Virus record (IMG/VR): IMGVR_UViG_3300025652_000301
Span: 1 to 31,933 of that record
DNA from: a virus
DNA: 31,933 nucleotides
Direction: 5' to 3' (one strand)
In this document: positions 1 to 31,933 of the stretch, piece after piece
Layout: every line of letters starts with the position of its first letter
Numbering within the stretch: position 1 is the first letter of the stretch
Notes under the pieces: generated by a model
What the model was told of the DNA's origin: nothing
Databases searched by the model: none
What the model saw: only the letters and a program-made list of their open reading frames with translations
Made by a program: the position numbers and the translations under genes

Positions 1-188
1 AAAGAAAATGAACCAAAGGAAAAACTATTGACATACGCCTGTGGCAAAGAACCTGAAACACTTTGAGTAGACGAAGAAGTATTTACTTGATTAAAGTTTA
101 TACCATCAACTACTAATTCAGTAGATGATGAACTTAATGGTGTTGAACCATCAAAATACTGCGGAAATACTATTAGTTGTACACTCAT
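1..188 (-). CDS. Tail/baseplate protein, N-terminal fragment cut by window edge (second allele)
   Basis: This is the first 62 codons of a second copy of the large tail/baseplate gene that is complete at 26783-29452. The ATG overlaps the TAA of the upstream tail protein by one base (TAATG), exactly as in the complete copy. The encoded peptide matches the N-terminus of the complete copy except for single substitutions such as Ser for Pro in the Leu-Ser-Ser stretch. The gene runs off the left edge, so it is truncated by the window and not broken. Confidence 0.85.
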   Translation of the reverse strand, partial: MSVQLIVFPQYFDGSTPLSSSSTELVVDGINFNQVNTSSSTQSVSGSLPQAYVNSFSFGSFS

Positions 189-1591
189 TATACAGACTGT
201 GTTCTTAGTGTTTTACTTTTCTCTACTTCAAAAGTGTATTGAATAAGTTTGTCGTTAGCTACTGTCTTCTTTACAAAACTTGAAGTAGTAAGTCTTACAG
301 GTTTTACATATTGATTAAGCGCTGAAGTAGCTGCGTCAGGTTGATAGCCTTCTAAAATATATACTTCAGGACTGTTTATTAGTTCTTCAAACATTTCGTT
401 TTCGATTTCACTAACAAAGTCTGTGTTCATTTTTATTTTCTCAGTAGCGTTTACTCTAAATGCTTTCTTTCCTCCTTTATAACTATCTACTCTATATGCT
501 GCTTCGTTCCAAGTTCCTGCTAGTTGCTCGTATGTAGAACCCTTAGTTGATATGTTCCTTACTGACTTCTGAGTGAATGTATAGTAATCCCAAACTCCCC
601 ATTGATTTAACCAACAAAGTCTTATGCTTTCAAATCCTTTAGTATTAGGACAATTTATGTTTATAGTGTATTGTTTAGCTATTCTATTACTGCTATCATC
701 AAAAGCTTGTATTTCTATTGAACCGCCCTGTATTGTTCCTGCTGTAACTAAACCTGCAAACATACTACTTCCGTCTCTCATTAAGTTAGCAGGAAAACAG
801 CCAAAGTATAAAAGTCTTGATGATATTTCTGTACTGAAAGTAGTATAAGCTCCATTTGTTACTGTCCTATTTATACTTTCATTACCTAACGGACTTCCTG
901 AGCTATCATTGTAAGTCAGTTTAATGTAGTCTAGATTGTCGTCAGGTGCTAAAAATGCAATCGTTCCGTAATCTTCTAAATTAGCATACTGAGTAGAAGG
1001 TGCGTTTGTTAAGAAGCTATCTGTTTGAGCTGCAAGGTTGTAGTTACTCAAATCATATCCAAAGTTACTTGCAGTTGCACCTGTACCCATTGTAAGAATA
1101 TCTGAGTATTTTAAATAACCATTGAACATCTGATAATCAACTGATACTGTAAATAAAGCTTCAGGTGTTACTACATCACCACTTGCGTCTGTGTATTGTG
1201 TTTTAAACTGAATAGTTAGCCATCTAGCACCTTTTTTATTTTTAGAATACTTATCTATCAAATGTAAAGGGTGAGGTGTGTCATCAGTTGTACTAACGCC
1301 TTTATACTCACTAAAGTTTGCAGCCATATTATCAGCACTAACATAATTTTCAACTACTTGCTTAAAATCAAATATTCCTACTCCTGCATTGTTTGGTGTA
1401 GTTTTAAATGTAGCTGTAGGAGTTGAAGTTGTAGTTACTGATGAAGGTATTGTGTCACTTATATAAACATCAGCAATAAATCTTACATTTGTTTGTGTAG
1501 CTACTATTGTATTATTTGATACTACAAAAATTACCTCTTGACCTACAGGAAGTTGAGTGTATAAAGGTTTTTGTTCTATTAGTGTTGCCAT
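188..1591 (-). CDS. Tail-associated structural protein, 467 aa (allele 1)
   Basis: A 467-residue, beta-rich protein of a type I associate with tail genes of Bacteroidota siphophages; its biochemical role is not known to me. Features include an N-terminal beta-rich part and a conserved central segment (Leu-Asn-Gln-Trp-Gly-Val-Trp-Asp-Tyr-Tyr). It has no signal peptide or membrane segment. It sits between the gp10-like gene and the large baseplate gene, abutting the first without a gap and overlapping the second by one base. A second allele of 473 residues is encoded at 29452-30873. The clearest difference is a short segment near residue 135, where the right copy has six extra residues. A distal-tail or baseplate-wedge role is inferred from position only. 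Confidence 0.75.
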   Translation of the reverse strand: MATLIEQKPLYTQLPVGQEVIFVVSNNTIVATQTNVRFIADVYISDTIPSSVTTTSTPTATFKTTPNNAGVGIFDFKQVVENYVSADNMAANFSEYKGVSTTDDTPHPLHLIDKYSKNKKGARWLTIQFKTQYTDASGDVVTPEALFTVSVDYQMFNGYLKYSDILTMGTGATASNFGYDLSNYNLAAQTDSFLTNAPSTQYANLEDYGTIAFLAPDDNLDYIKLTYNDSSGSPLGNESINRTVTNGAYTTFSTEISSRLLYFGCFPANLMRDGSSMFAGLVTAGTIQGGSIEIQAFDDSSNRIAKQYTININCPNTKGFESIRLCWLNQWGVWDYYTFTQKSVRNISTKGSTYEQLAGTWNEAAYRVDSYKGGKKAFRVNATEKIKMNTDFVSEIENEMFEELINSPEVYILEGYQPDAATSALNQYVKPVRLTTSSFVKKTVANDKLIQYTFEVEKSKTLRTQSV

Positions 1592-2116
1592 TTATTTTAC
1601 TGTTGTTAATCCGTTAATAATATCATCTTTTACTGCTCCTAACATTTCTTTTCCAAACTGCTTTAAACCTAACATTAAAGGTTTCTGAAAGAAACTTATT
1701 CCTTGTATTCCTTTTCTCTTAATACTTCTAGCTATTAAAAAAGATATGCTTTTCCTAGACATAAATCTACCTTTTTCATCTCTTGGAGCAATTCCTTTTT
1801 TTACTATCCACTTATCAAGCACTCTGCTAGGTGGTTGCTTTGTAGTGTACTTATAAGGACTTGAAATTGTTCTACCCTTATAATCTTTAAAACTTCTTTT
1901 TACTTCTGTTCCTGAAACTCCTTTATCTACAAAAGTACCGTAACTATCCATATAGAATTGTACACTAAACCCTTTAGCAGTTGTAATAACTTTAAAGCTT
2001 AATGAATTCTCTAAATTAGTACCACCTCCTTTAGATTTTTGTAAGTTTCCTTTAGCTCTGTTTACTACTTGTTTACCAAAGCTATTAAGATACCTTTCAA
2101 GAGCTTCTGTCTTCAT
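1592..2116 (-). CDS. HK97 gp10-like neck/tail-completion protein, 174 aa (allele 1)
   Basis: A basic 174-residue protein resembling the HK97 gp10/minor tail family: an N-terminal helix with a lysine-rich loop, then a central motif Tyr-Gly-Thr-Phe-Val-Asp-Lys-Gly-Val-Ser-Gly. Proteins of this type help join head and tail or close the tail. Its ATG overlaps the last base of the upstream 149-aa gene's stop. The first and last roughly 30 residues are nearly identical to the right-hand allele (30874-31422), but the middle differs strongly and is eight residues shorter, giving a mosaic pattern. The family call rests on motif appearance and is moderately secure. Confidence 0.6.
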   Translation of the reverse strand: MKTEALERYLNSFGKQVVNRAKGNLQKSKGGGTNLENSLSFKVITTAKGFSVQFYMDSYGTFVDKGVSGTEVKRSFKDYKGRTISSPYKYTTKQPPSRVLDKWIVKKGIAPRDEKGRFMSRKSISFLIARSIKRKGIQGISFFQKPLMLGLKQFGKEMLGAVKDDIINGLTTVK

Positions 2117-2565
2117 TATACTAGTGCTGCAAAGACTTCTACTTGAACATCAGTTGTTGCTGAAGGTCTTACCTCTACAGTAACTAAATCTTCTAATGTA
2201 GGAAATGCAGGAGTTGCATCTTCTTCACCAATTAATGCTTCCTCAGCTTGGAATAAGATATGTGAACCACCTGCTCTAACTGTTACTTGATAGTTTGTAG
2301 CTGCTGTTACATAAGCTACTTTCATATCTTGGTCATCACTTAAATTAGTTATTCTTAAGTATTTACAGTTCTCTACATCTAAAGCACCATCTGCTCCATA
2401 AGGAGTTGAATTAAATACTGCTACTGTTGTAGTCTGCGTGTGAGTGCAAGTTAATATCCTTTCAAATACATCAACTATGCCTGTAGTTGTTAAGACGTTT
2501 GTAGAACCTCTGACTGAGCCGTTCAATACGACATTCTCTGTGATTGTTGTTGTTAAATCTGCCAT
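2116..2565 (-). CDS. Small beta-rich structural protein, 149 aa (allele 1)
   Basis: A Thr/Val/Ala-rich 149-residue protein with an alternating pattern suggesting a beta sandwich. It has few Lys residues, two Cys residues (Leu-Thr-Cys-Thr and Asn-Cys-Lys) and no membrane segment. I cannot assign a named family. It lies between the tail completion gene and the gp10-like gene in the tail block, so a decoration or tail-surface role is possible. The right-hand allele at 31422-31871 differs by only two residues (Val/Thr and Thr/Ser), much less than its neighbour does. Confidence 0.75.
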   Translation of the reverse strand: MADLTTTITENVVLNGSVRGSTNVLTTTGIVDVFERILTCTHTQTTTVAVFNSTPYGADGALDVENCKYLRITNLSDDQDMKVAYVTAATNYQVTVRAGGSHILFQAEEALIGEEDATPAFPTLEDLVTVEVRPSATTDVQVEVFAALV

Positions 2566-2566
2566 T

Positions 2567-2641
2567 TTATAATTTTATTGTTATTTTAAATTTCTTCCAT
2601 CCTATTTGAACTATTAGTCTTCCTATCTTGAACTTTAGCAT
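2567..2641 (-). CDS. Very small basic protein, 24 aa
   Basis: A 24-codon frame starts at an ATG overlapping the stop of the upstream 181-aa gene (TAATG) and ends one base before the next gene's ATG. It fills a 75-base gap exactly. The peptide begins MLKFKIGRLIVQIGWKKF and is rich in Lys and Ile with one Trp, suggesting an amphipathic basic strand or helix. The part present in the right-hand copy (31873-31933) is conserved. Function is unknown. The tight coupling on both sides is the main evidence that it is translated. Confidence 0.5.
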   Translation of the reverse strand: MLKFKIGRLIVQIGWKKFKITIKL

Positions 2642-9570: not shown

Positions 9571-9782
9571 TTTATGCCCCATATTTTTTTATCTTCTTCT
9601 GTTAAATAATTATCAGCTTCTAGTTTATCTGTATGTTTTTTAGCTTCTTTATAAAGTTTTATATTTTTTTCTTCAATATAATTTATAAATTCTTCTTGCC
9701 AATCTATCCTTTCGCAATTCTTTCTATTCACGTCAAGTACGTGTAATAAGATTTCTAATGGTGCTGTTTCTTTTTTTTTCAT
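9567..9782 (-). CDS. Hypothetical charged helical protein, 71 aa
   Basis: A soluble, strongly charged protein rich in Lys, Glu and Asp, probably helical. I chose the ATG at 9782, which overlaps the upstream TGA by four bases (ATGA). An ATG ten codons earlier (9812) would overlap the upstream gene by 34 bases and is less likely. No family recognised. It lies between the replication genes and the recombination genes. Confidence 0.6.
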   Translation of the reverse strand: MKKKETAPLEILLHVLDVNRKNCERIDWQEEFINYIEEKNIKLYKEAKKHTDKLEADNYLTEEDKKIWGIK

Positions 9783-10147
9783 TTTAATAATTTTATTGGT
9801 TCTTGATACCATAAGGTCTTTCCTTTTGGCTTTCCTAATGTATGCACTTCATAGTACGCATTGTCTACTAACTTTTTCTGAGCATATACCCACTTGTAAA
9901 AAGTTCTGATATTTAAAAAGGGTTCGTCTTTACCAAATCTTACGCCCTGCCTAAATGCGTCTTGAACTTGATTGAAAGTCATATTGCCAAAACGCTTTTC
10001 TTGTATTAAGTCTTCTGCAAAGATTTTAGATAGTGAAGCTAAAGTCTGAGCGTCTGACCTGTGTCCTATCTCAACTGAAGTCTTAGCAACTAAGTCTAGG
10101 ACTTTTTCAGTTAGGTCTTTTAAGTTTTCTTGTTTTAATGGTTTCAT
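9779..10147 (-). CDS. Conserved-type replication-region protein, 122 aa
   Basis: A helical protein of unknown function placed directly after the replication initiator, with its ATG at 10147 overlapping the initiator's TGA (ATGA). The C-terminal half carries a Phe-Leu-Asn-Ile-Arg-Thr-Phe-Tyr-Lys-Trp segment. Its position matches that of helicase-loader genes in lambda-like replication modules, but no P-loop or loader motif is visible, so this is only a positional idea. A start eight codons earlier (10171) is possible. Confidence 0.55.
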   Translation of the reverse strand: MKPLKQENLKDLTEKVLDLVAKTSVEIGHRSDAQTLASLSKIFAEDLIQEKRFGNMTFNQVQDAFRQGVRFGKDEPFLNIRTFYKWVYAQKKLVDNAYYEVHTLGKPKGKTLWYQEPIKLLK

Positions 10148-10863
10148 AATAATTCTTTTGCTTTTTGCCATTCATTAATTTGAGCGTCTAACTTACTCAT
10201 TGTTTTTTTATTAGACTTAGGTTTATCCCATTTCTTTTGATTAGATACCCAAGTCTTTAATCTGAGATTTGTACTCCAAGTTTTGTTTAATTCATATTTC
10301 ATTTTTGTATTAGACTTATTAGGCTCTGTCCAATAATCTATAAATCCATTTAAAATACTTTCATCATAATCAAAAGACAAAACCTCAAATACAAATTCAT
10401 TACGCCTATTAGATATATTATTTTTATTATTATTCTTATTGTTATTCTTATTAATAGTTTGCGTTTTTTTAACTGCTAGTTGTTCACTTTCTTTACAACT
10501 AGTTTGCGTTTTTTTAACAACTAGTTTTGCAGTTTCTTCACAACTAGTATTGAAATAACTTAACAACTTGGCTTCCATTATTTTAAAGTGCTGCTTTGCA
10601 GGAACTCCAATTACTTTAGTTTCTATTATTCCTAAGTCCTTTAGCCTTTTAATTGCTTTCCTTTGCTGATGTGAAGTTAAACAAGTGTCTTCTTCTATAT
10701 TCTTAGCAGTATTAAAAAACCATCCGTCAGTCATTCCGTTAGCCATAAAGTATTCTTCTTTGCTAATTAGGTCGGCAAGTAGGACTGCCCCTTTCAATCC
10801 TACCTGCTTCGCTAATTGCTTGTTCACTATTAAAAAAGCTGAACTACTTAATAAATGTTTCAT
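10144..10863 (-). CDS. Replication initiation protein with internal origin, 239 aa
   Basis: The N-terminal 100 residues look like a winged-helix domain typical of phage and plasmid initiators: Leu-Leu-Ala-Asp-Leu-Ile-Ser-Lys, then Ser-His-Gln-Gln-Arg-Lys-Ala-Ile-Lys-Arg-Leu-Lys recognition helix, Leu-Gly-Ile-Ile and a wing. Residues 106-135 are two 15-residue repeats (TSCxExxxLxVKKTQ), encoded by the iteron array, followed by an Asn/Lys run encoded by a very AT-rich tract. A C-terminal domain with several Trp residues follows from about 160. This matches lambda O, whose gene holds the origin between its domains. It would bind the iterons and recruit the host helicase. Confidence 0.7.
   Translation of the reverse strand: MKHLLSSSAFLIVNKQLAKQVGLKGAVLLADLISKEEYFMANGMTDGWFFNTAKNIEEDTCLTSHQQRKAIKRLKDLGIIETKVIGVPAKQHFKIMEAKLLSYFNTSCEETAKLVVKKTQTSCKESEQLAVKKTQTINKNNNKNNNKNNISNRRNEFVFEVLSFDYDESILNGFIDYWTEPNKSNTKMKYELNKTWSTNLRLKTWVSNQKKWDKPKSNKKTMSKLDAQINEWQKAKELL
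10410..10550. other. Probable replication origin: iterons plus AT-rich unwinding tract
   Basis: Inside the initiator gene, the plus strand carries CTAGTT-type units whose equivalent bases fall at 10454, 10476, 10499, 10521 and 10544. The spacing is 22, 23, 22 and 23 bases, about two helical turns. Three units have ACTAGT; the outer-left two are degenerate. Larger 45-base units share AGTTTGCGTTTTTTTAAC. A tract of almost pure A/T (10410-10452) lies beside the array. Phased iterons next to an AT-rich tract within an initiator gene is the lambda origin layout. Confidence 0.6.
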
Positions 10864-11369
10864 ATAACTTCTATTTCGTGTTGATAATTTTGAAGGGCTA
10901 ACTTACATAATTCTAATTGATTGTAGAAGTCTTTGTAAGAAACTTTAACATCAGTTCCAAATTTACCTGAAGTTATACGTATAGTAGTTTGGTGTGTTCT
11001 GCTGTCGTGTATGTCATTTTTTCTTAAATGTTCCTGTAAGTTATACAAGTCAATGAAAGTTAATTTAGCGTCCTTGATTTCCGTATAAGCGTTAAATATT
11101 TTATTAAATGTATCACGATATAAAGGAAAAGAAGAATAGTTAGCTGAGTGACATCTTTCGTAATGGTTCACGCTTGTTCTATTCCTATCCAATACCTTAG
11201 CAATTACTTCTCTGTGGGTTTCATCTTCAATTCTTGCAACCATAGCTGCAATCATTCTAGGGACTTGGTATTCTAACTTTCTGCTTTTTAAAGCTAGAGA
11301 GCCTTTAGGCAACCCCACTAAACTTGTAGTGAGGTCGCAAAGGTTTTTAAAGTTATCTTCTGTATTCAT
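10860..11369 (-). CDS. DnaA domain IV-like DNA-binding protein, 169 aa
   Basis: The N-terminal half contains a segment resembling the C-terminal DNA-binding domain of DnaA: Ser-Arg-Lys-Leu-Glu-Tyr-Gln-Val-Pro-Arg-Met-Ile-Ala-Ala-Met-Val-Ala-Arg, then Val-Leu-Asp-Arg-Asn-Arg-Thr-Ser-Val-Asn-His-Tyr. The latter sits where DnaA has its Asp-His-Ser-Thr-Val signature. No AAA+ ATPase part is present. It could bind DnaA boxes or the phage origin. I placed the start at 11369 just after the SSB stop; an upstream ATG (11396) falls inside the SSB coding sequence. It overlaps the initiator gene by four bases. Confidence 0.55.
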   Translation of the reverse strand: MNTEDNFKNLCDLTTSLVGLPKGSLALKSRKLEYQVPRMIAAMVARIEDETHREVIAKVLDRNRTSVNHYERCHSANYSSFPLYRDTFNKIFNAYTEIKDAKLTFIDLYNLQEHLRKNDIHDSRTHQTTIRITSGKFGTDVKVSYKDFYNQLELCKLALQNYQHEIEVI

Positions 11370-11370
11370 C

Positions 11371-11691
11371 TTAGAAAGGCATATCTTCTTCTCCATTCTG
11401 TATTTTGTCTGAAGATTTATTACTTTGATTAGTGAAAAAGTAGCCGTCTATATTGTGAAAATATCTTCCGTTATATTCTCTAGAATAAACATTACAAAGA
11501 ACTGATACTTCCATTCCTATTTCTAGCTTGTTCATTTGTTGTAATTTATCACCAAAGGCACTTACACATACTTCATTATTAAACTCTCCACCTGTATCAA
11601 TTACTATTGATTGCTTTTGCCATTCTTTACCTGCTTTAGATGTTCCTGTTTCTAATTCAAGTTTCTTTACTAGTTTTCCTGTTACTTCCAT
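11371..11691 (-). CDS. Single-stranded DNA-binding protein-like (DUF3127 type), 106 aa
   Basis: An OB-fold-like protein beginning Met-Glu-Val-Thr-Gly-Lys-Leu-Val and ending in a short acidic tail (Glu-Glu-Asp-Met-Pro-Phe). This is like the Asp-x-x-Pro-Phe tip of bacterial SSB, which recruits partner proteins. The N-terminal pattern and size fit the DUF3127 family found in Bacteroidota and their phages. It would coat single-stranded DNA at the fork. It lies just upstream of the DnaA-like and initiator genes. Confidence 0.75.
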   Translation of the reverse strand: MEVTGKLVKKLELETGTSKAGKEWQKQSIVIDTGGEFNNEVCVSAFGDKLQQMNKLEIGMEVSVLCNVYSREYNGRYFHNIDGYFFTNQSNKSSDKIQNGEEDMPF

Positions 11692-12710: not shown

Positions 12711-12739
12711 TTCTTAAAATTGTATTGATTAATATGCAG

Positions 12740-12770
12740 CAAAGATATAAAAATAAATAGATACTAACAT
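12740..12770 (-). promoter_or_regulatory. Early promoter, Bacteroidota type (TAnnTTTG)
   Basis: Minus strand has TATCTTTG at 12747-12740, a full match to the Bacteroidota -7 consensus TAnnTTTG. It precedes the first early gene (ATG at 12710), giving a leader of roughly 25 bases. The -33 element (TTG) is not clear; TGTTAG lies at about the right distance. It would be read by the host primary sigma factor on infection. Confidence 0.6.
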
Positions 12771-12816
12771 AATTATTATCAAAGTTATTAACAATTTAAG
12801 TGTTAAGAGTGTTTTT

Positions 12817-12847
12817 ACTAGATAAGCAACTTTAAGTGCTGTCTAGT
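12817..12847. promoter_or_regulatory. Imperfect palindrome in the main intergenic region
   Basis: ACTAGATAAGCA and TGCTGTCTAGT form a stem of 11 bases with one bulge around ACTTTAAG. It sits in the 262-base non-coding gap 12711-12972, the largest gap in the window, upstream of the early promoter. A related direct repeat, CAATTTAAGTGTT against CAACTTTAAGTGCT, lies at about 12792 and 12827. There is no T-run after the stem on the minus strand, so it is not a typical terminator. An operator or activator site is possible. Confidence 0.4.
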
Positions 12848-12972
12848 ATATTACCATTAAAAAGATGAGAAAGTGCCTAAAACGGCTAAAGGGGGTTATA
12901 AATTTAGCAATAAAATCACTAAGATTATAAGCATATACATTAAAAATATGTTGGTTGATTGGCTTTCTTCCA

Positions 12973-26783: not shown

Positions 26784-29452
26784 TATGGTATAAGTATAAA
26801 TTCTACTGTTGCTAAGTCGTTTGGTTTATAGTCTATCTTGTTCACTCTGAATGTTCTGTTTTTAATAAATACTGTATCGTTAAATTTAAATGTATTAATA
26901 TCTGAAGGACTTAAATTAACTTTAATAGTCATAATCCTAGTGTCAGGGTTGTACAGTTCTGAGTAATAAGGCAACCAATACAAATTAAATAGATTATTGT
27001 TTGTAGGTGACCCTACAGGTAGTATTAATTGACATTCCCCAAAGTGAAAATCCCTTCTGTTCGTAGCTATTGCTCCGGGTGGTAGTGATGTCAAATGACT
27101 AAATTGTAAAAACTGATTTTCAAAAGCATCTCCTATAACTCCGTTTTGGTCAGGGATAAAATATGTACAACTTGTTAAAGTCTTTTCACCATTATCAAAC
27201 ATTATTCTAGGACTATTTTCAAAGCCTTCAGAAGTATTATCATCAGGATTGTAAGAATAAACAGCAGGTGTTATAAAATCAGCAAATAGTTCGTCTAAAG
27301 GCTTTACTACTGTTGCTGCAAAAGGTTCTGCAATTATTTCATCTTCTCCTGCTAGAATTGTAAACTCTGAAGCATCATATTTCTTACTACCGTACAAATG
27401 ACCACCTACTGAATTTTTATAATTATTAAAAGCATAGTCATCATCATCTTCTACAAACTTAAATATAGTTTTTTTGTTTAAATCAGTTAAAGGCATAAGC
27501 TTCATTTCTGAAACATCTATCTTGTCAGTCCAATCTAGTTCAATAGAAGTATCGTCAAAGAAGTTAGGATTTGCAGCATCATTACTAGACATAAAAATAT
27601 CTCCATAAGGTTCTATCTTTATATTGCTAGGATTGTCTTCATCAGGCAAAGTAACTAAGTTAAACATTGTAAGAATTCCTTTTAAGAAATCCCATTGTCC
27701 TAATTCACCCCTTAGTGTTCCTAAGAGTGTGTCTGTTGTAGTTTGCGCAACAGATGTTGTTATTGTTACAAGTGAAGGAGTTACTCCTAAAGGATTATAT
27801 ACTCCTTCTAAATCATAAGTTCCTAAAGAAGACTTAGCTTGACATAAAACAGTATCGCCTGATGTTAAAGGGGGTGTAGTAAAAGTTCCTGTATAATTAA
27901 AAGAAAAATTTGTAGTAGTTGCAAAATCAACTGAAACTCCATTTACTAACCATTCAACTTCTAAAATGTCAGGTACTATGCTACGCTTAAATTCCATATC
28001 AAAAGTAAAAGTATAAACTTGTGCGTCTTCCTGAGCTGTAAAAACTCCTGCTGAATATCCAAAGTTTGCGTCTAAATTATTACCACCAACAGTAGCCATT
28101 TCATCAAAAGGCAAAGTCGTAAAAGTTGCAGCAATACTAAAATCTAAAAGATTTGTCAATTCACCACTTGAATTAAATACTACAGGAGCATTATCAGAAC
28201 CCCAATTAAAGTCCATAAAAAGCTTTGCAAAATCTGCTGTATCAAAAAATGCACTTTCATAAGTAAAATCTGTTGCAGCAAATATTCTATCTATTAAATA
28301 CTTTAATGTTAAAAAAGGTCTAAAAGCACTTTCTAAATTTGGTAAAACAGGAAAGCCTGAACTAGCATCAAAAGTAAATTGGTGCGTCCAATCTACAAAA
28401 GGGTATTTAACTGTTTCAGCAGCTCTAAAGCCTGAAGTACTAGGGTTGGTATATGTTACCCCTGTTGCACCCCAAGAAGCTTGTATGTTTGATAAATTAT
28501 AAGCGTGATTTAATTCAGAAAAGTCTAAATCAGAAAAAGTTCTATCTCCTAATACATCAGCTAGTGCAACAACTTCAGAATAAAGATTGACATTGTAGCT
28601 TATCTCTCCTTCCTTGTCTGAAATATCTATCATTCTTAAATAGCCTTCAAATAATAAAAAGCCATCTTGTTTTAGAATACATTTTGTTTTCTTATAAGGA
28701 TTAAAGTTAAGTCCTGTATCAGTTCTAGTTACTTCAAATATATTATCAAAGATTTTATTGTTTCTTTTTGTAGCAGGTAAGTTAAAAGCCTTTGAATATG
28801 ATTGCACTTTCTCAGCTACATTTTTAAAGTCATCTACACTAAGACTTAAAGGAATATCCTCATCTTCATAAAGGTCGCATATTACTTGTCCATTACTTAA
28901 ATCTGTAAATACTCCACTAGGTGTTGATGTAGATGAAACACAAGATATGTCAGCTATACCAACAACTGAGGTTGCACTGTATATTATGATTTGGTCTGAA
29001 GTTGAATAAGCGTTAAACGATACAGTCTGTAATCCTGTTCCTGTTATTGTGTGAGAGCTTCTTAATACATTTCCTGTATATTGATAAACTGAAAAATTAG
29101 TTGTGTTAGAATTTATGTTTAAAGTTAAGTCGTAAGTAGCTCCGAAAGTAAGGTTAGACAATCGTTGAACTATACCTGTGTTTATTGGTATTGCTAACGA
29201 GCCTGAACTTTGTGTTATCTCACTTGCAACACCACTAAAACGATACCAAGTGTTTAAAATAAAAAAAGAAAATGAACCAAAGGAAAAACTATTGACATAC
29301 GCCTGTGGCAAAGAACCTGAAACACTTTGAGTAGACGAAGAAGTATTTACTTGATTAAAGTTTATACCATCAACTACTAATTCAGTAGATGGTGAACTTA
29401 ATGGTGTTGAACCATCAAAATACTGTGGAAATACTATTAACTGTACACTCAT
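26783..29452 (-). CDS. Large tail/baseplate protein, 889 aa
   Basis: The longest gene. Residues 1-170 look like a beta-sandwich carbohydrate-binding domain rich in Ser, Thr and Asn. From about 190 it matches a conserved Bacteroidota phage tail protein: Asp-Leu-Tyr-Glu-Asp-Glu-Asp-Ile-Pro-Leu-Ser-Leu-Ser, then Tyr-Ser-Lys-Ala-Phe-Asn-Leu-Pro-Ala-Thr-Lys, Phe-Asn-Pro-Tyr-Lys-Lys and Leu-Phe-Glu-Gly-Tyr-Leu. Later parts are beta-rich with a C-terminal Phe-Lys-Phe-Asn-Asp-Thr-Val-Phe-Ile-Lys. It probably forms the baseplate hub or tip (Tal-like). The N-terminal 62 codons recur as a second allele at 1-188. Confidence 0.7.
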   Translation of the reverse strand: MSVQLIVFPQYFDGSTPLSSPSTELVVDGINFNQVNTSSSTQSVSGSLPQAYVNSFSFGSFSFFILNTWYRFSGVASEITQSSGSLAIPINTGIVQRLSNLTFGATYDLTLNINSNTTNFSVYQYTGNVLRSSHTITGTGLQTVSFNAYSTSDQIIIYSATSVVGIADISCVSSTSTPSGVFTDLSNGQVICDLYEDEDIPLSLSVDDFKNVAEKVQSYSKAFNLPATKRNNKIFDNIFEVTRTDTGLNFNPYKKTKCILKQDGFLLFEGYLRMIDISDKEGEISYNVNLYSEVVALADVLGDRTFSDLDFSELNHAYNLSNIQASWGATGVTYTNPSTSGFRAAETVKYPFVDWTHQFTFDASSGFPVLPNLESAFRPFLTLKYLIDRIFAATDFTYESAFFDTADFAKLFMDFNWGSDNAPVVFNSSGELTNLLDFSIAATFTTLPFDEMATVGGNNLDANFGYSAGVFTAQEDAQVYTFTFDMEFKRSIVPDILEVEWLVNGVSVDFATTTNFSFNYTGTFTTPPLTSGDTVLCQAKSSLGTYDLEGVYNPLGVTPSLVTITTSVAQTTTDTLLGTLRGELGQWDFLKGILTMFNLVTLPDEDNPSNIKIEPYGDIFMSSNDAANPNFFDDTSIELDWTDKIDVSEMKLMPLTDLNKKTIFKFVEDDDDYAFNNYKNSVGGHLYGSKKYDASEFTILAGEDEIIAEPFAATVVKPLDELFADFITPAVYSYNPDDNTSEGFENSPRIMFDNGEKTLTSCTYFIPDQNGVIGDAFENQFLQFSHLTSLPPGAIATNRRDFHFGECQLILPVGSPTNNNLFNLYWLPYYSELYNPDTRIMTIKVNLSPSDINTFKFNDTVFIKNRTFRVNKIDYKPNDLATVEFILIP

Positions 29453-30873
29453 TATACTGATTGTGTTCTTAGTGTTTTACTTTTCTCTACTTCAAAAGTG
29501 TACTGAATAAGCTTATCGTTTGCTACTGTTTTCTTTACAAAACTAGATGTTGTAAGTCTAACAGGTTTTACATACTGATTAAGTGCTGAAGTAGCTGCGT
29601 CAGGTTGGTAGCCTTCTAAAATATATACTTCAGGACTGTTTATTAGTTCTTCAAACATTTCGTTTTCGCTTTCACTAACAAAGTCTGTGTTCATTTTTAT
29701 TTTTTCTGTAGCGTTTACTCTAAATGCTTTCTTTCCTCCTTTATAACTATCTACCCTGTAGGCTGCTTCATTCCAAGTTCCTGCCAATTGCTCGTATGTA
29801 GAACCTTTAGTTGATACGCTTCTTACTGACTTCTGAGTGAATGTGTAGTAATCCCAAACTCCCCATTGATTTAACCAACAAAGTCTTATGCTTTCAAATC
29901 CTTTAGTATTAGGACAATTTATGTTTATAGTGTATTGTTTAGCTATTCTATTACTGCTATCATCAAAAGCTTGTATTTCTATTGAACCGCCCTGTATTGT
30001 TCCTGCTGTAACTAAACCTGCAAACATACTACTTCCGTCTCTCATTAAGTTAGCAGGAAAACAGCCAAAGTATAAAAGTCTTGATGATATTTCTGTACTG
30101 AAAGTAGTATAAGCTCCATTTGTTACTGTCTTATTTATACTTTCATTACCTAACGGACTTCCCGAGCTATCATAGTAATTAAGTTTTATGTAGTCTAGAT
30201 TGTCGTCAGGTGCTAAAAATGCAATCGTTCCGTAATCTTCTAAATTAGCATACTGAGTAGAAGGTGCGTTTGTTAAGAAGCTATCTGTTTGTGAAAACAA
30301 ATTAAAGTTACTCAAATCATATCCAAAATTGTTAGCAGTTGCACCTGTACCCATTGTAAGAATGTCTGAGTATTTTAAGTAGCCATTAAACATCTGATAA
30401 TCAACTGATACTGCAAATAAAGCTTCAGGTGTAATTATTTGCCCAAATGTAGAAGAAGTAGGGTCTTGGTCTAAATACTGTGTTTTAAACTGAATAGTTA
30501 GCCATCTAGCACCTTTTTTATTTTTAGAATACTTATCTATTAAATGTAAAGGGTGTGGTGTGTCATCAGTTGTTGTAACACCTTTATACTCACTAAAGTT
30601 TGCAGCCATATTATCAGCACTAACATAATTTTCAACTACTTGCTTGAAATCAAATATACCTACTCCTGCATTGTTAGGAGTTGTTTTAAATGTAGCTGTA
30701 GGAATTGAAGTTGTAGTTACTGATGAAGGTATTGTATCACTTATATAAACATCAGCAATAAATCTTACATTTGTTTGTGTAGCTACTATTGTATTATTTG
30801 ATACTACAAAAATTACCTCTTGACCTACAGGAAGTTGAGTGTATAAAGGTTTTTGTTCTATTAGTGTTGCCAT
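29452..30873 (-). CDS. Tail-associated structural protein, 473 aa (allele 2)
   Basis: The full-length counterpart of the 467-aa protein at 188-1591, with the same start and stop contexts. Differences are mostly single substitutions (for example Ile/Thr near residue 57, Ser/Ile in the Glu-Ser-Glu-Asn-Glu segment). There is also one exchanged stretch near residues 133-147 with six extra residues (Asp-Gln-Asp-Pro-Thr-Ser-Ser-Thr-Phe-Gly). That stretch is probably an exposed loop. Role as for allele 1: tail or baseplate part of unknown chemistry. Confidence 0.75.
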   Translation of the reverse strand: MATLIEQKPLYTQLPVGQEVIFVVSNNTIVATQTNVRFIADVYISDTIPSSVTTTSIPTATFKTTPNNAGVGIFDFKQVVENYVSADNMAANFSEYKGVTTTDDTPHPLHLIDKYSKNKKGARWLTIQFKTQYLDQDPTSSTFGQIITPEALFAVSVDYQMFNGYLKYSDILTMGTGATANNFGYDLSNFNLFSQTDSFLTNAPSTQYANLEDYGTIAFLAPDDNLDYIKLNYYDSSGSPLGNESINKTVTNGAYTTFSTEISSRLLYFGCFPANLMRDGSSMFAGLVTAGTIQGGSIEIQAFDDSSNRIAKQYTININCPNTKGFESIRLCWLNQWGVWDYYTFTQKSVRSVSTKGSTYEQLAGTWNEAAYRVDSYKGGKKAFRVNATEKIKMNTDFVSESENEMFEELINSPEVYILEGYQPDAATSALNQYVKPVRLTTSSFVKKTVANDKLIQYTFEVEKSKTLRTQSV

Positions 30874-31422
30874 TTATTTTACTGTTGTTAATCCGTTAAT
30901 AATATCATCTTTTACTGCTCCTAACATTTCTTTGCCAAACTGCTTTAATCCTAACATCAAAGGCTTTTGAAAGAAACTTATGCCTTGTATTCCTTTGCTA
31001 TATATGCTTCTTGCAATTATATAACCCATACTTTTATGGCTCATAAATCTACCTTTTTTGTCACGCCATTGAAAGCCTTTCTTTTTTACCCACTTAGCCA
31101 TAATTCCTGACATCCCCCCTTTTGCTTTGCCTACTCTTGAAGAACCTGTACCAAACTTATAAGGACTTGTAATTACTTTACCTTTATAATCTTTAAAACT
31201 TCTTGCCTTATTAGTTCCTGAAACTCCTTTATCTACAAAAGTACCGTAATCAGTCATAAAAAACTGTACAGCAAAACCCTCAGCATTATTAGTAACTTTA
31301 AAATCTATTGACTTTTCTAAATTAGTGCCACCGCCTTTAGCTTTTTGTAAATTTCCTTTTGCTCTGTTTACTACTTGTTTACCAAAGCTATTAAGATACC
31401 TTTCAAGAGCTTCTGTCTTCAT
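30874..31422 (-). CDS. HK97 gp10-like neck/tail-completion protein, 182 aa (allele 2)
   Basis: Counterpart of the 174-aa protein at 1592-2116. The first 26 and last about 32 residues are nearly identical. Between them the sequence is clearly diverged (for example Lys-Phe-Gly-Thr-Gly-Ser-Ser-Arg against Lys-Tyr-Thr-Thr-Lys-Gln-Pro-Pro), with an inserted Gly-rich loop (Lys-Ala-Lys-Gly-Gly-Met-Ser-Gly). The Tyr-Gly-Thr-Phe-Val-Asp-Lys-Gly-Val-Ser-Gly motif is kept. This allele is longer, and the pattern suggests recombination of the central domain from a related phage. Confidence 0.6.
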   Translation of the reverse strand: MKTEALERYLNSFGKQVVNRAKGNLQKAKGGGTNLEKSIDFKVTNNAEGFAVQFFMTDYGTFVDKGVSGTNKARSFKDYKGKVITSPYKFGTGSSRVGKAKGGMSGIMAKWVKKKGFQWRDKKGRFMSHKSMGYIIARSIYSKGIQGISFFQKPLMLGLKQFGKEMLGAVKDDIINGLTTVK

Positions 31423-31871
31423 TATACTAGTGCTGCAAAGACTTCTACTTGAACATCAGTTGTTGCTGAAGGTCTTACCTCTACAGTAACTAAATCTTCT
31501 AATGTAGGAAATGCAGGAGTTGCATCTTCTTCACCAATTAATGCTTCCTCAGCTTGGAATAAGATATGTGAACCACCTGCTCTAACTGTTACTTGATAGT
31601 TTGTAGCTGCTGTTACATAAGCTACTTTCATATCTTGGTCATCACTTAAATTAGTTATTCTTAAGTATTTACAGTTCTCTACATCTAAAGCACCATCTGC
31701 TCCATAAGGAGTTGAATTAAATACTGCTACTGTTGTAGTCTGTGAATGAGTGCAAGTTAATATTCTTTCAAATACGTCTACTATGCCTGTAGTTGTTAAA
31801 GTATTAGTAGAACCTCTGACTGAGCCGTTCAATACGACATTCTCTGTGATTGTTGTTGTTAAATCTGCCAT
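31422..31871 (-). CDS. Small beta-rich structural protein, 149 aa (allele 2)
   Basis: Differs from the 149-aa protein at 2116-2565 at two residues only, and the DNA differs by a handful of mostly silent changes. Its neighbour in the same repeat is strongly diverged, so divergence is patchy along the redundant segment. Function unknown, as for allele 1. Confidence 0.75.
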   Translation of the reverse strand: MADLTTTITENVVLNGSVRGSTNTLTTTGIVDVFERILTCTHSQTTTVAVFNSTPYGADGALDVENCKYLRITNLSDDQDMKVAYVTAATNYQVTVRAGGSHILFQAEEALIGEEDATPAFPTLEDLVTVEVRPSATTDVQVEVFAALV

Positions 31872-31872
31872 T

Positions 31873-31933
31873 TTATAATTTTATTGTTATTTTAAATTTC
31901 TTCCATCCTATTTGAACTATTAGTCTTCCTATC
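31873..31933 (-). CDS. Very small basic protein, C-terminal fragment cut by window edge
   Basis: The last 19 codons plus stop of the second copy of the 24-codon gene at 2567-2641. The visible part encodes the same residues as the left copy, and the spacing to the next ATG is the same. Its start lies beyond the right edge. Confidence 0.45.
   Translation of the reverse strand, partial: IGRLIVQIGWKKFKITIKL

Follow-up and report, generated by a model that had tools for sequence, protein, structure and literature searches.

The question of where replication of a phage genome begins arises here from a replication initiator gene that carries a series of short repeats in the middle of its coding region. 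The gene lies in IMG/VR record IMGVR_UViG_3300025652_000301; the window referred to below is the whole stretch of 31,933 nucleotides that was analysed. The repeats could be a property of the encoded protein or a signal in the DNA. The best explanation, with a probability of about 0.88, is that window positions ~10572 to 10406 form a phage theta-type replication origin, situated inside the linker-coding part of its own initiator gene and read by the winged helix of the initiator.

The initiator gene and its protein

The initiator is a 239-amino acid protein encoded on the minus strand. By profile match, it resembles PHROG O-like and replication initiation families (phrog_9773, E=2.3e-14; phrog_428, E=2.6e-14; phrog_678, E=1e-8), and at the PHROG level these matches assign it to the O-like phage replication initiators. 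The gene and the parts of its protein are as follows.

10144–10863, minus strand: O-like replication initiator gene, 239 aa (PHROG families; Foldseek matches to plasmid initiator Rep structures)
10549–10863, minus strand: predicted N-terminal winged-helix DNA-binding domain, residues 1–105 (AlphaFold, Foldseek)
10423–10548, minus strand: predicted flexible linker of the initiator, residues 106–147, coded by the putative origin (pLDDT <50)
10147–10416, minus strand: predicted C-terminal helical domain, residues 150–239 (AlphaFold), common to initiators of another type

In an AlphaFold model built with 43 relatives, the confident winged-helix domain spans approximately residues 14–105, with the order helix-helix-HTH-wing and a pLDDT of 86–93 for residues 21–100. 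Residues 106–147 are unstructured (pLDDT <50), and these are precisely the part coded by the repeat array and the adjoining A/T tract. A C-terminal helical domain follows, with a pLDDT of 87–92 for residues 151–210. The pTM of the whole model is low (0.41), as expected because the linker is floppy. The architecture of the modelled protein is thus an N-terminal DNA-binding domain, a flexible origin-coded linker and a C-terminal domain, as in the lambda O type, and the original prediction, which had placed the array between a winged-helix N-terminus and the C-terminal domain, agrees with the model.

The PDB structures matched by Foldseek are winged-helix proteins, including the plasmid Rep initiators 4pql and 4pt7 and the Rep–DNA complex 5kbj; their probability is near 1, with weak E-values (0.004–0.03; approximately 0.01–0.03 for plasmid Rep). 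Among viral structure models, the best named matches are replication proteins of Lactobacillus phage Ld17 and a protein of Eggerthella phage PMBT5. A PDB sequence search with the initiator profile returned chance matches only.

A ladder of iterons beside the least stable DNA of the window

Six repeat units with the coding-strand consensus AACTAGTTGTTAAA occupy window positions 10572 to 10446, in the middle of the initiator gene, and an A/T-rich tract adjoins the last of them.

10559–10572, minus strand: iteron 1 (GCCAAGTTGTTAAG), 23 bp before unit 2 and missed by the original prediction
10536–10549, minus strand: iteron 2 (TACTAGTTGTGAAG)
10513–10526, minus strand: iteron 3 (AACTAGTTGTTAAA)
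10491–10504, minus strand: iteron 4 (AACTAGTTGTAAAG)
10468–10481, minus strand: iteron 5 (AACTAGCAGTTAAA)
10446–10459, minus strand: iteron 6 (AACTATTAATAAGA), which runs into the A/T tract and is the most constant unit of the family
10406–10456, no strand assigned: A/T-rich tract, candidate DNA-unwinding element, coding for an Asn/Lys run (nearest-neighbour energy; synonymous identity)

The 14-bp unit cores start at 10572, 10549, 10526, 10504, 10481 and 10459, with spacings of 23, 23, 22, 23 and 22 bp, or approximately 22.5 bp. On the minus strand, ACTAG starts at 10548, 10525, 10503 and 10480 and ACTAT at 10458 (spacings 23, 22, 23 and 22). Five CTAGT-type units at 22/23-base steps had been predicted; their positions and spacing hold, but their number does not, as a sixth unit, CCAAGTTGTTAAG at 10571, lies 23 bp before the first of the five and just beyond the range then given. 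This iteron 1 is weaker in the window (GCCAAGTTGTTAAG) but reads AACAAGTTGTTAAG in many relatives. Units 1 and 6 deviate, and the palindrome is limited to an 8-bp core, AACTAGTT, in two to three units.

The array is not a product of chance. The score of its ladder of three or five units at 22/23-bp steps was reached in 0 of 400 synonymous-codon randomisations, which kept the protein and the phage codon usage, and in none of 400 dinucleotide shuffles. Moreover, the best 5-unit ladder on either strand of the whole window is the array in the initiator gene, and a pattern for two adjacent perfect units occurs in at most one place per genome in four whole relatives.

By nearest-neighbour energy, positions 10406–10456 are the least stable 50 bp of the 31.9-kb window (dG −46.0 kcal/mol; next peak −48.3), which bears out the A/T tract described beside the units. 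The tract overlaps the end of unit 6 and extends past it on the C-terminal side of the array. GC skew shows no inflection at the array; it is uninformative on the origin because nearly all genes lie on one strand.

Selection on the DNA rather than the protein

Codon identity was compared among 68 distinct full genes from a viral scan; a second viral scan mostly returned loci of the first, and identical sequences were dropped before the statistics. Synonymous identity, defined as the fraction of identical codons among pairs with the same amino acid, is 0.93–0.98 over most of codons 106–150, compared with approximately 0.58–0.77 over the DNA-binding domain and approximately 0.6–0.75 elsewhere. 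It is 0.98 in codons 136–150, the region of the A/T tract; codons 121–130, the second repeat, are covered by too few sequences for judging. Amino acid identity in codons 106–150 is among the lowest in the gene (0.5–0.7), so the expectation that the DNA repeats would be kept more strongly than the residues is strongly borne out. In 20 sequences of <88% identity, the excess of synonymous identity adjusted for amino acid is 0.24 inside the array and tract and 0.01 outside. The excess of the array and tract is reached in 0 of 238 circular shifts, which is a better control than the Mann-Whitney test on the same set (p=3e-11), indicative only as the sequences are related. In a comparison of neighbouring genes that covers four genes, the control genes of the same loci (SSB, DnaA-like and 130-aa) have no internal synonymous peak of this size; they peak instead at gene starts, in places where one gene overlaps or adjoins the next. 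The iterons are therefore under selection at the DNA level.

Two explanations for the array that do without a DNA-binding site can be weighed against these data. One holds that the repeats are a protein feature only, the periodicity of the DNA mirroring the 15-residue repeat of a duplicated low-complexity linker. The protein does contain a tandem 15-residue repeat (TSCEETAKLVVKKTQ / TSCKESEQLAVKKTQ) and an Asn/Lys run, both as predicted, and its linker is disordered in the model. However, the DNA period is half that of the protein repeat, and the unit starts fall in all three codon frames, such that the DNA motif is translated variously as AKLLS, TSCE and LVVK. The 15-residue repeat accounts for a 45-bp repeat but not for 22/23-bp half-repeats in different frames, and the signal therefore belongs to the DNA. 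As the protein-preserving randomisations never yield the ladder and the DNA is conserved where residues vary, this explanation is barely credible. The other would attribute the synonymous constraint to an overlapping gene or an RNA element, and constraint by itself cannot separate a DNA function from an RNA function. Yet no other ORF of at least 60 aa overlaps 10406–10572, Rfam and tRNA searches found nothing, and the constrained unit is a 22–23-bp ladder that varies by pairs, as is typical of protein-binding iterons; such an element is equally improbable.

Variation of the array among relatives

The array comprises six units in the window and the nearest relatives; in relatives of 222–224 aa it is shorter by exactly one 45-bp step, or two units, leaving four. 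As iterons 22–23 bp apart stay in frame only when gained or lost two at a time, arrays change length in steps of 45 bp (15 codons). More diverged groups contain approximately three to five weaker units (AACAAGTT..., AACTTGT..., AACTATTAATAAG), which match the consensus of the window with lower scores, in some cases within the range of shuffles, but always occupy the same place in the gene. Motif-like units at 22–23-bp steps are thus retained by relatives that have this DNA-binding domain. The walk along the relatives' arrays tried 22- and 23-bp steps only; it thus fixes the spacing in advance, and what counts as evidence is how well the sequence matches at these steps. Unforced evidence for the spacing comes from the ACTAG positions and from the tandem-repeat and ladder results.

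Exchange of the DNA-binding domain together with the array

The gene directly upstream of the initiator (10860–11396) was followed in 80 fetched loci; 63 of them contain a relative of this initiator, and the remaining 17 lack one. Where the sequence permits, these other loci contain an initiator with a different N-terminal domain (MKEKPSYYAII...) that matches other replication-initiation PHROGs, and two further scans yielded 138 genes of this other type. A search for the DNA-binding domain of the window among the 138 genes gave no match. In contrast, the C-terminal domain of the window has 73 matches among them, with up to 80% identity over 90 residues (L342). The other-type initiators, which have an unrelated HTH domain and the same neighbours, score at the level of shuffles on the CTAGT ladder (median 24, vs 30 for the window type; shuffles, median 23 and 90th percentile 25). 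The CTAGT array is thus absent where the DNA-binding domain has been replaced and the upstream gene, and often the C-terminal domain, retained, and therefore the array goes with the DNA-binding domain. No relative sharing the DNA-binding domain was seen to keep the protein and lose the repeats, the case that would have counted against the prediction; loss of the repeats is confined to genes in which this domain has been replaced. This exchange is the strongest evidence that the initiator reads the repeats and, judged from sequence comparison, points to binding of the array by the protein.

The linkers of the other type have a synonymous-constraint peak of their own just past the DNA-binding domain. 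In type B1, synonymous identity is 0.92–0.95 in codons 101–120, and in type B2 it is 0.84–0.94 over most of codons 81–140. One distant other-type initiator (L367) has three GGTATTAAGAAAACT copies in its linker at 22–23-bp steps, followed by an A/T-rich stretch. Repeats are also seen in the linkers of the distant other-type initiators L356 and L371.

In the proposed mechanism, the N-terminal winged helix of the initiator would contact the iterons, with dimers probably sitting on the near-palindromic AACTAGTT cores. Once assembled, this complex would strain and open the adjacent A/T tract, and the C-terminal domain would recruit the replicative helicase or its loader.

Explanations that accept protein binding and dispute either its purpose or the protein involved are the closest competitors of this origin. 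Iteron-type initiators often autoregulate, and the array might accordingly be an operator or a copy-control (handcuffing) site that limits expression of the initiator's own gene while replication starts elsewhere; binding alone would account for the constraint and for the association of the array with the DNA-binding domain. Against this, the array lies approximately 300 bp inside the gene and not at a promoter, it adjoins the least stable 50 bp of the window, and the window holds no better 5-unit array at this spacing. Furthermore, the order of domain, constrained repeats and A/T-rich stretch is found again in an unrelated initiator type. A purely regulatory site is therefore unlikely, though it is the most plausible of the alternatives. 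It is less plausible still that another phage or host protein binds the repeats. The obvious candidate would be the product of the upstream gene, an immediate neighbour with the DNA-binding fold of DnaA, but this protein is kept at 72–93% identity in loci that have the other initiator DNA-binding domain and yet lack the CTAGT array. Nor does the window contain a TTATNCACA DnaA box, with one loose match only.

An origin read by the initiator remains the preferred reading, and it places a candidate origin within approximately 170 bp, from sequence alone, in an uncultivated, probably flavobacterial phage lineage. The combination of a synonymous-constraint peak and a repeat ladder independent of reading frame, both in the linker of an initiator, is a reusable recipe. 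Additionally, as DNA-binding domain and origin travel together in natural swaps, initiator–origin specificity is directly testable in many natural variants.

Comparison with known initiators and origins

On the best reading, by analogy, the origin would work as do those of lambda O and the plasmid pSK41 Rep. The original description of the locus as a lambda-like origin holds for the layout and the probable mechanism but not for direct sequence homology. Membership of the lambda O protein family proper was rejected on that count (hhalign probability vs lambda O, 0.07%), and the link to lambda O is transitive only, through the common PHROGs phrog_678 and phrog_9773. The iteron sequence is unrelated to that of lambda, as had been anticipated.

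In lambda, as in the window, the iterons lie in the middle of the initiator gene with an AT-rich region 3ʹ of them, and the initiator has, by prediction in the case of the window, an N-terminal DNA-binding domain, a flexible linker and a C-terminal partner-binding domain. The lambda AT-rich region lies beyond ITN4, and each iteron is occupied by a dimer of O, a protein with a flexible linker between its domains (PMC6022878). As a positive control, the four annotated iterons of lambda were located at offsets 348–432 of gene O, with starts 20, 24 and 23 bp apart; the spacing in the window is 22/23 bp, a pair measuring 45 bp. The lambda iteron dyad measures 18 bp (18–19 bp for the lambda O type), whereas the window has an 8-bp palindromic core. 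Lambda also has a P gene, whereas the window has no recognisable one. Stx phages P27 and 933W have six iterons where lambda has four, the two extra ones adding 13 codons (PMC7466680). An iteron pair therefore adds 13 codons in Stx phages and 15 in the window family, both being whole-codon steps.

Of the RepA_N plasmid initiators, such as staphylococcal pSK41 Rep, the Rep structures 5kbj, 4pql and 4pt7 are among the fold matches of the window initiator. Membership of RepA_N was rejected, the similarity being one of fold only: Pfam RepA_N (PF06970) matched none of 43 members of the window family. In pSK41, the four boxes bound by Rep occupy the centre of rep itself, and the part of the protein coded by the origin is a dispensable linker (PMC5703833). 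In the pPR9 chimera, the DNA-binding domain and origin have been exchanged for those of an HTH_36 (pfam13730) type while the C-terminal domain is kept (PMC5703833), the same kind of swap as that among relatives of the window. Unlike pSK41 and pPR9, the window comes from a phage and not a plasmid, and its repeat sequence is different.

Closer in sequence are the O-like initiators of Flavobacterium phages Fpv5-11 (45–48% identity over the DNA-binding domain) and of Lactobacillus phages LL-Ku and Ld17 (37–41%); for LL-Ku, the hhalign probability against the window initiator is 99.4%. The repeats of these initiators are different from those of the window or not obvious, and a search for exact 9-mer repeats revealed no obvious iterons in the initiator genes of the Flavobacterium phages. 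In LL-Ku and Ld17 the initiator is adjoined by a DnaC-like gene, whereas none was recognised in the window. A limited open-access keyword search returned no paper describing an iteron origin in a Bacteroidota phage, which does not prove that none exists.

Neighbouring genes

The initiator gene is flanked by two conserved genes.

10860–11396, minus strand: DnaA-domain-IV-like protein, directly upstream of the initiator (Pfam Bac_DnaA_C; Foldseek)
9779–10171, minus strand: 130-aa protein in the position of lambda P (helicase loader), a conserved neighbour

Pfam Bac_DnaA_C is found in 35 of 38 relatives of the upstream protein at E<=0.1 (best E=3.6e-5). By Foldseek, the protein matches DnaA domain IV (1j1v/3pvp; target TM 0.79–0.83) and has an extra C-terminal part. 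It had no match among 50,697 phage records. This protein is a neighbour that is not needed to explain the origin. The 130-aa gene is present in 55 of the 63 fetched loci with the initiator, and its product is strongly conserved (84% mean column identity). No family or PDB match was found for it with family profiles or in the PDB, PDB sequence searches with the DnaA-like and 130-aa profiles gave chance matches only, and family and structure searches recognised no helicase or loader beside the initiator. The 130-aa protein is a candidate new helicase loader.

The feature that exceeds a routine annotation is that domain-plus-origin cassettes are naturally exchanged while the neighbouring genes, one of them DnaA-domain-IV-like, stay constant. 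A more speculative idea, and a rather doubtful one, is that the slot between the DnaA-like and 130-aa genes accepts, as a docking site, interchangeable cassettes that each combine a DNA-binding domain with its origin. The two proteins would then be the fixed components of a new initiation machinery, one a DnaA-type DNA binder encoded by the phage and the other a helicase loader not recognised as such, and would serve any cassette. Elsewhere in the window, a non-coding AT-rich stretch of approximately 260 bp (12711–12972) between two minus-strand genes has a GC skew near zero and is a possible promoter region of the replication operon.

Host and contig

The phage is probably marine. Its nearest portal proteins are those of Nonlabens phages P12024S/L (30% identity), which were isolated from seawater on Persicivirga. 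The SSB of the window is of the DUF3127 type, also present in a Nonlabens phage, and the nearest annotated initiators are those of Flavobacterium phages. Together, SSB, portal and initiators make the predicted Bacteroidota host likely. A search of bacterial genomes for relatives of the initiator gave one match only (L091), a 51% relative in a metagenome-assembled genome titled Pseudooceanicola. It gives no host information because it is probably a wrongly binned phage contig.

The two ends of the window (1–2627 and 29265–31933) are copies of one three-gene stretch and are 93–94% identical. In six related records of 26.6–29.0 kb, the 467-aa gene occurs only once, and the end repeat is therefore probably not a true duplication. 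The contig probably represents one circularly closing or permuted genome of approximately 29.3 kb, with ends from two strain variants.
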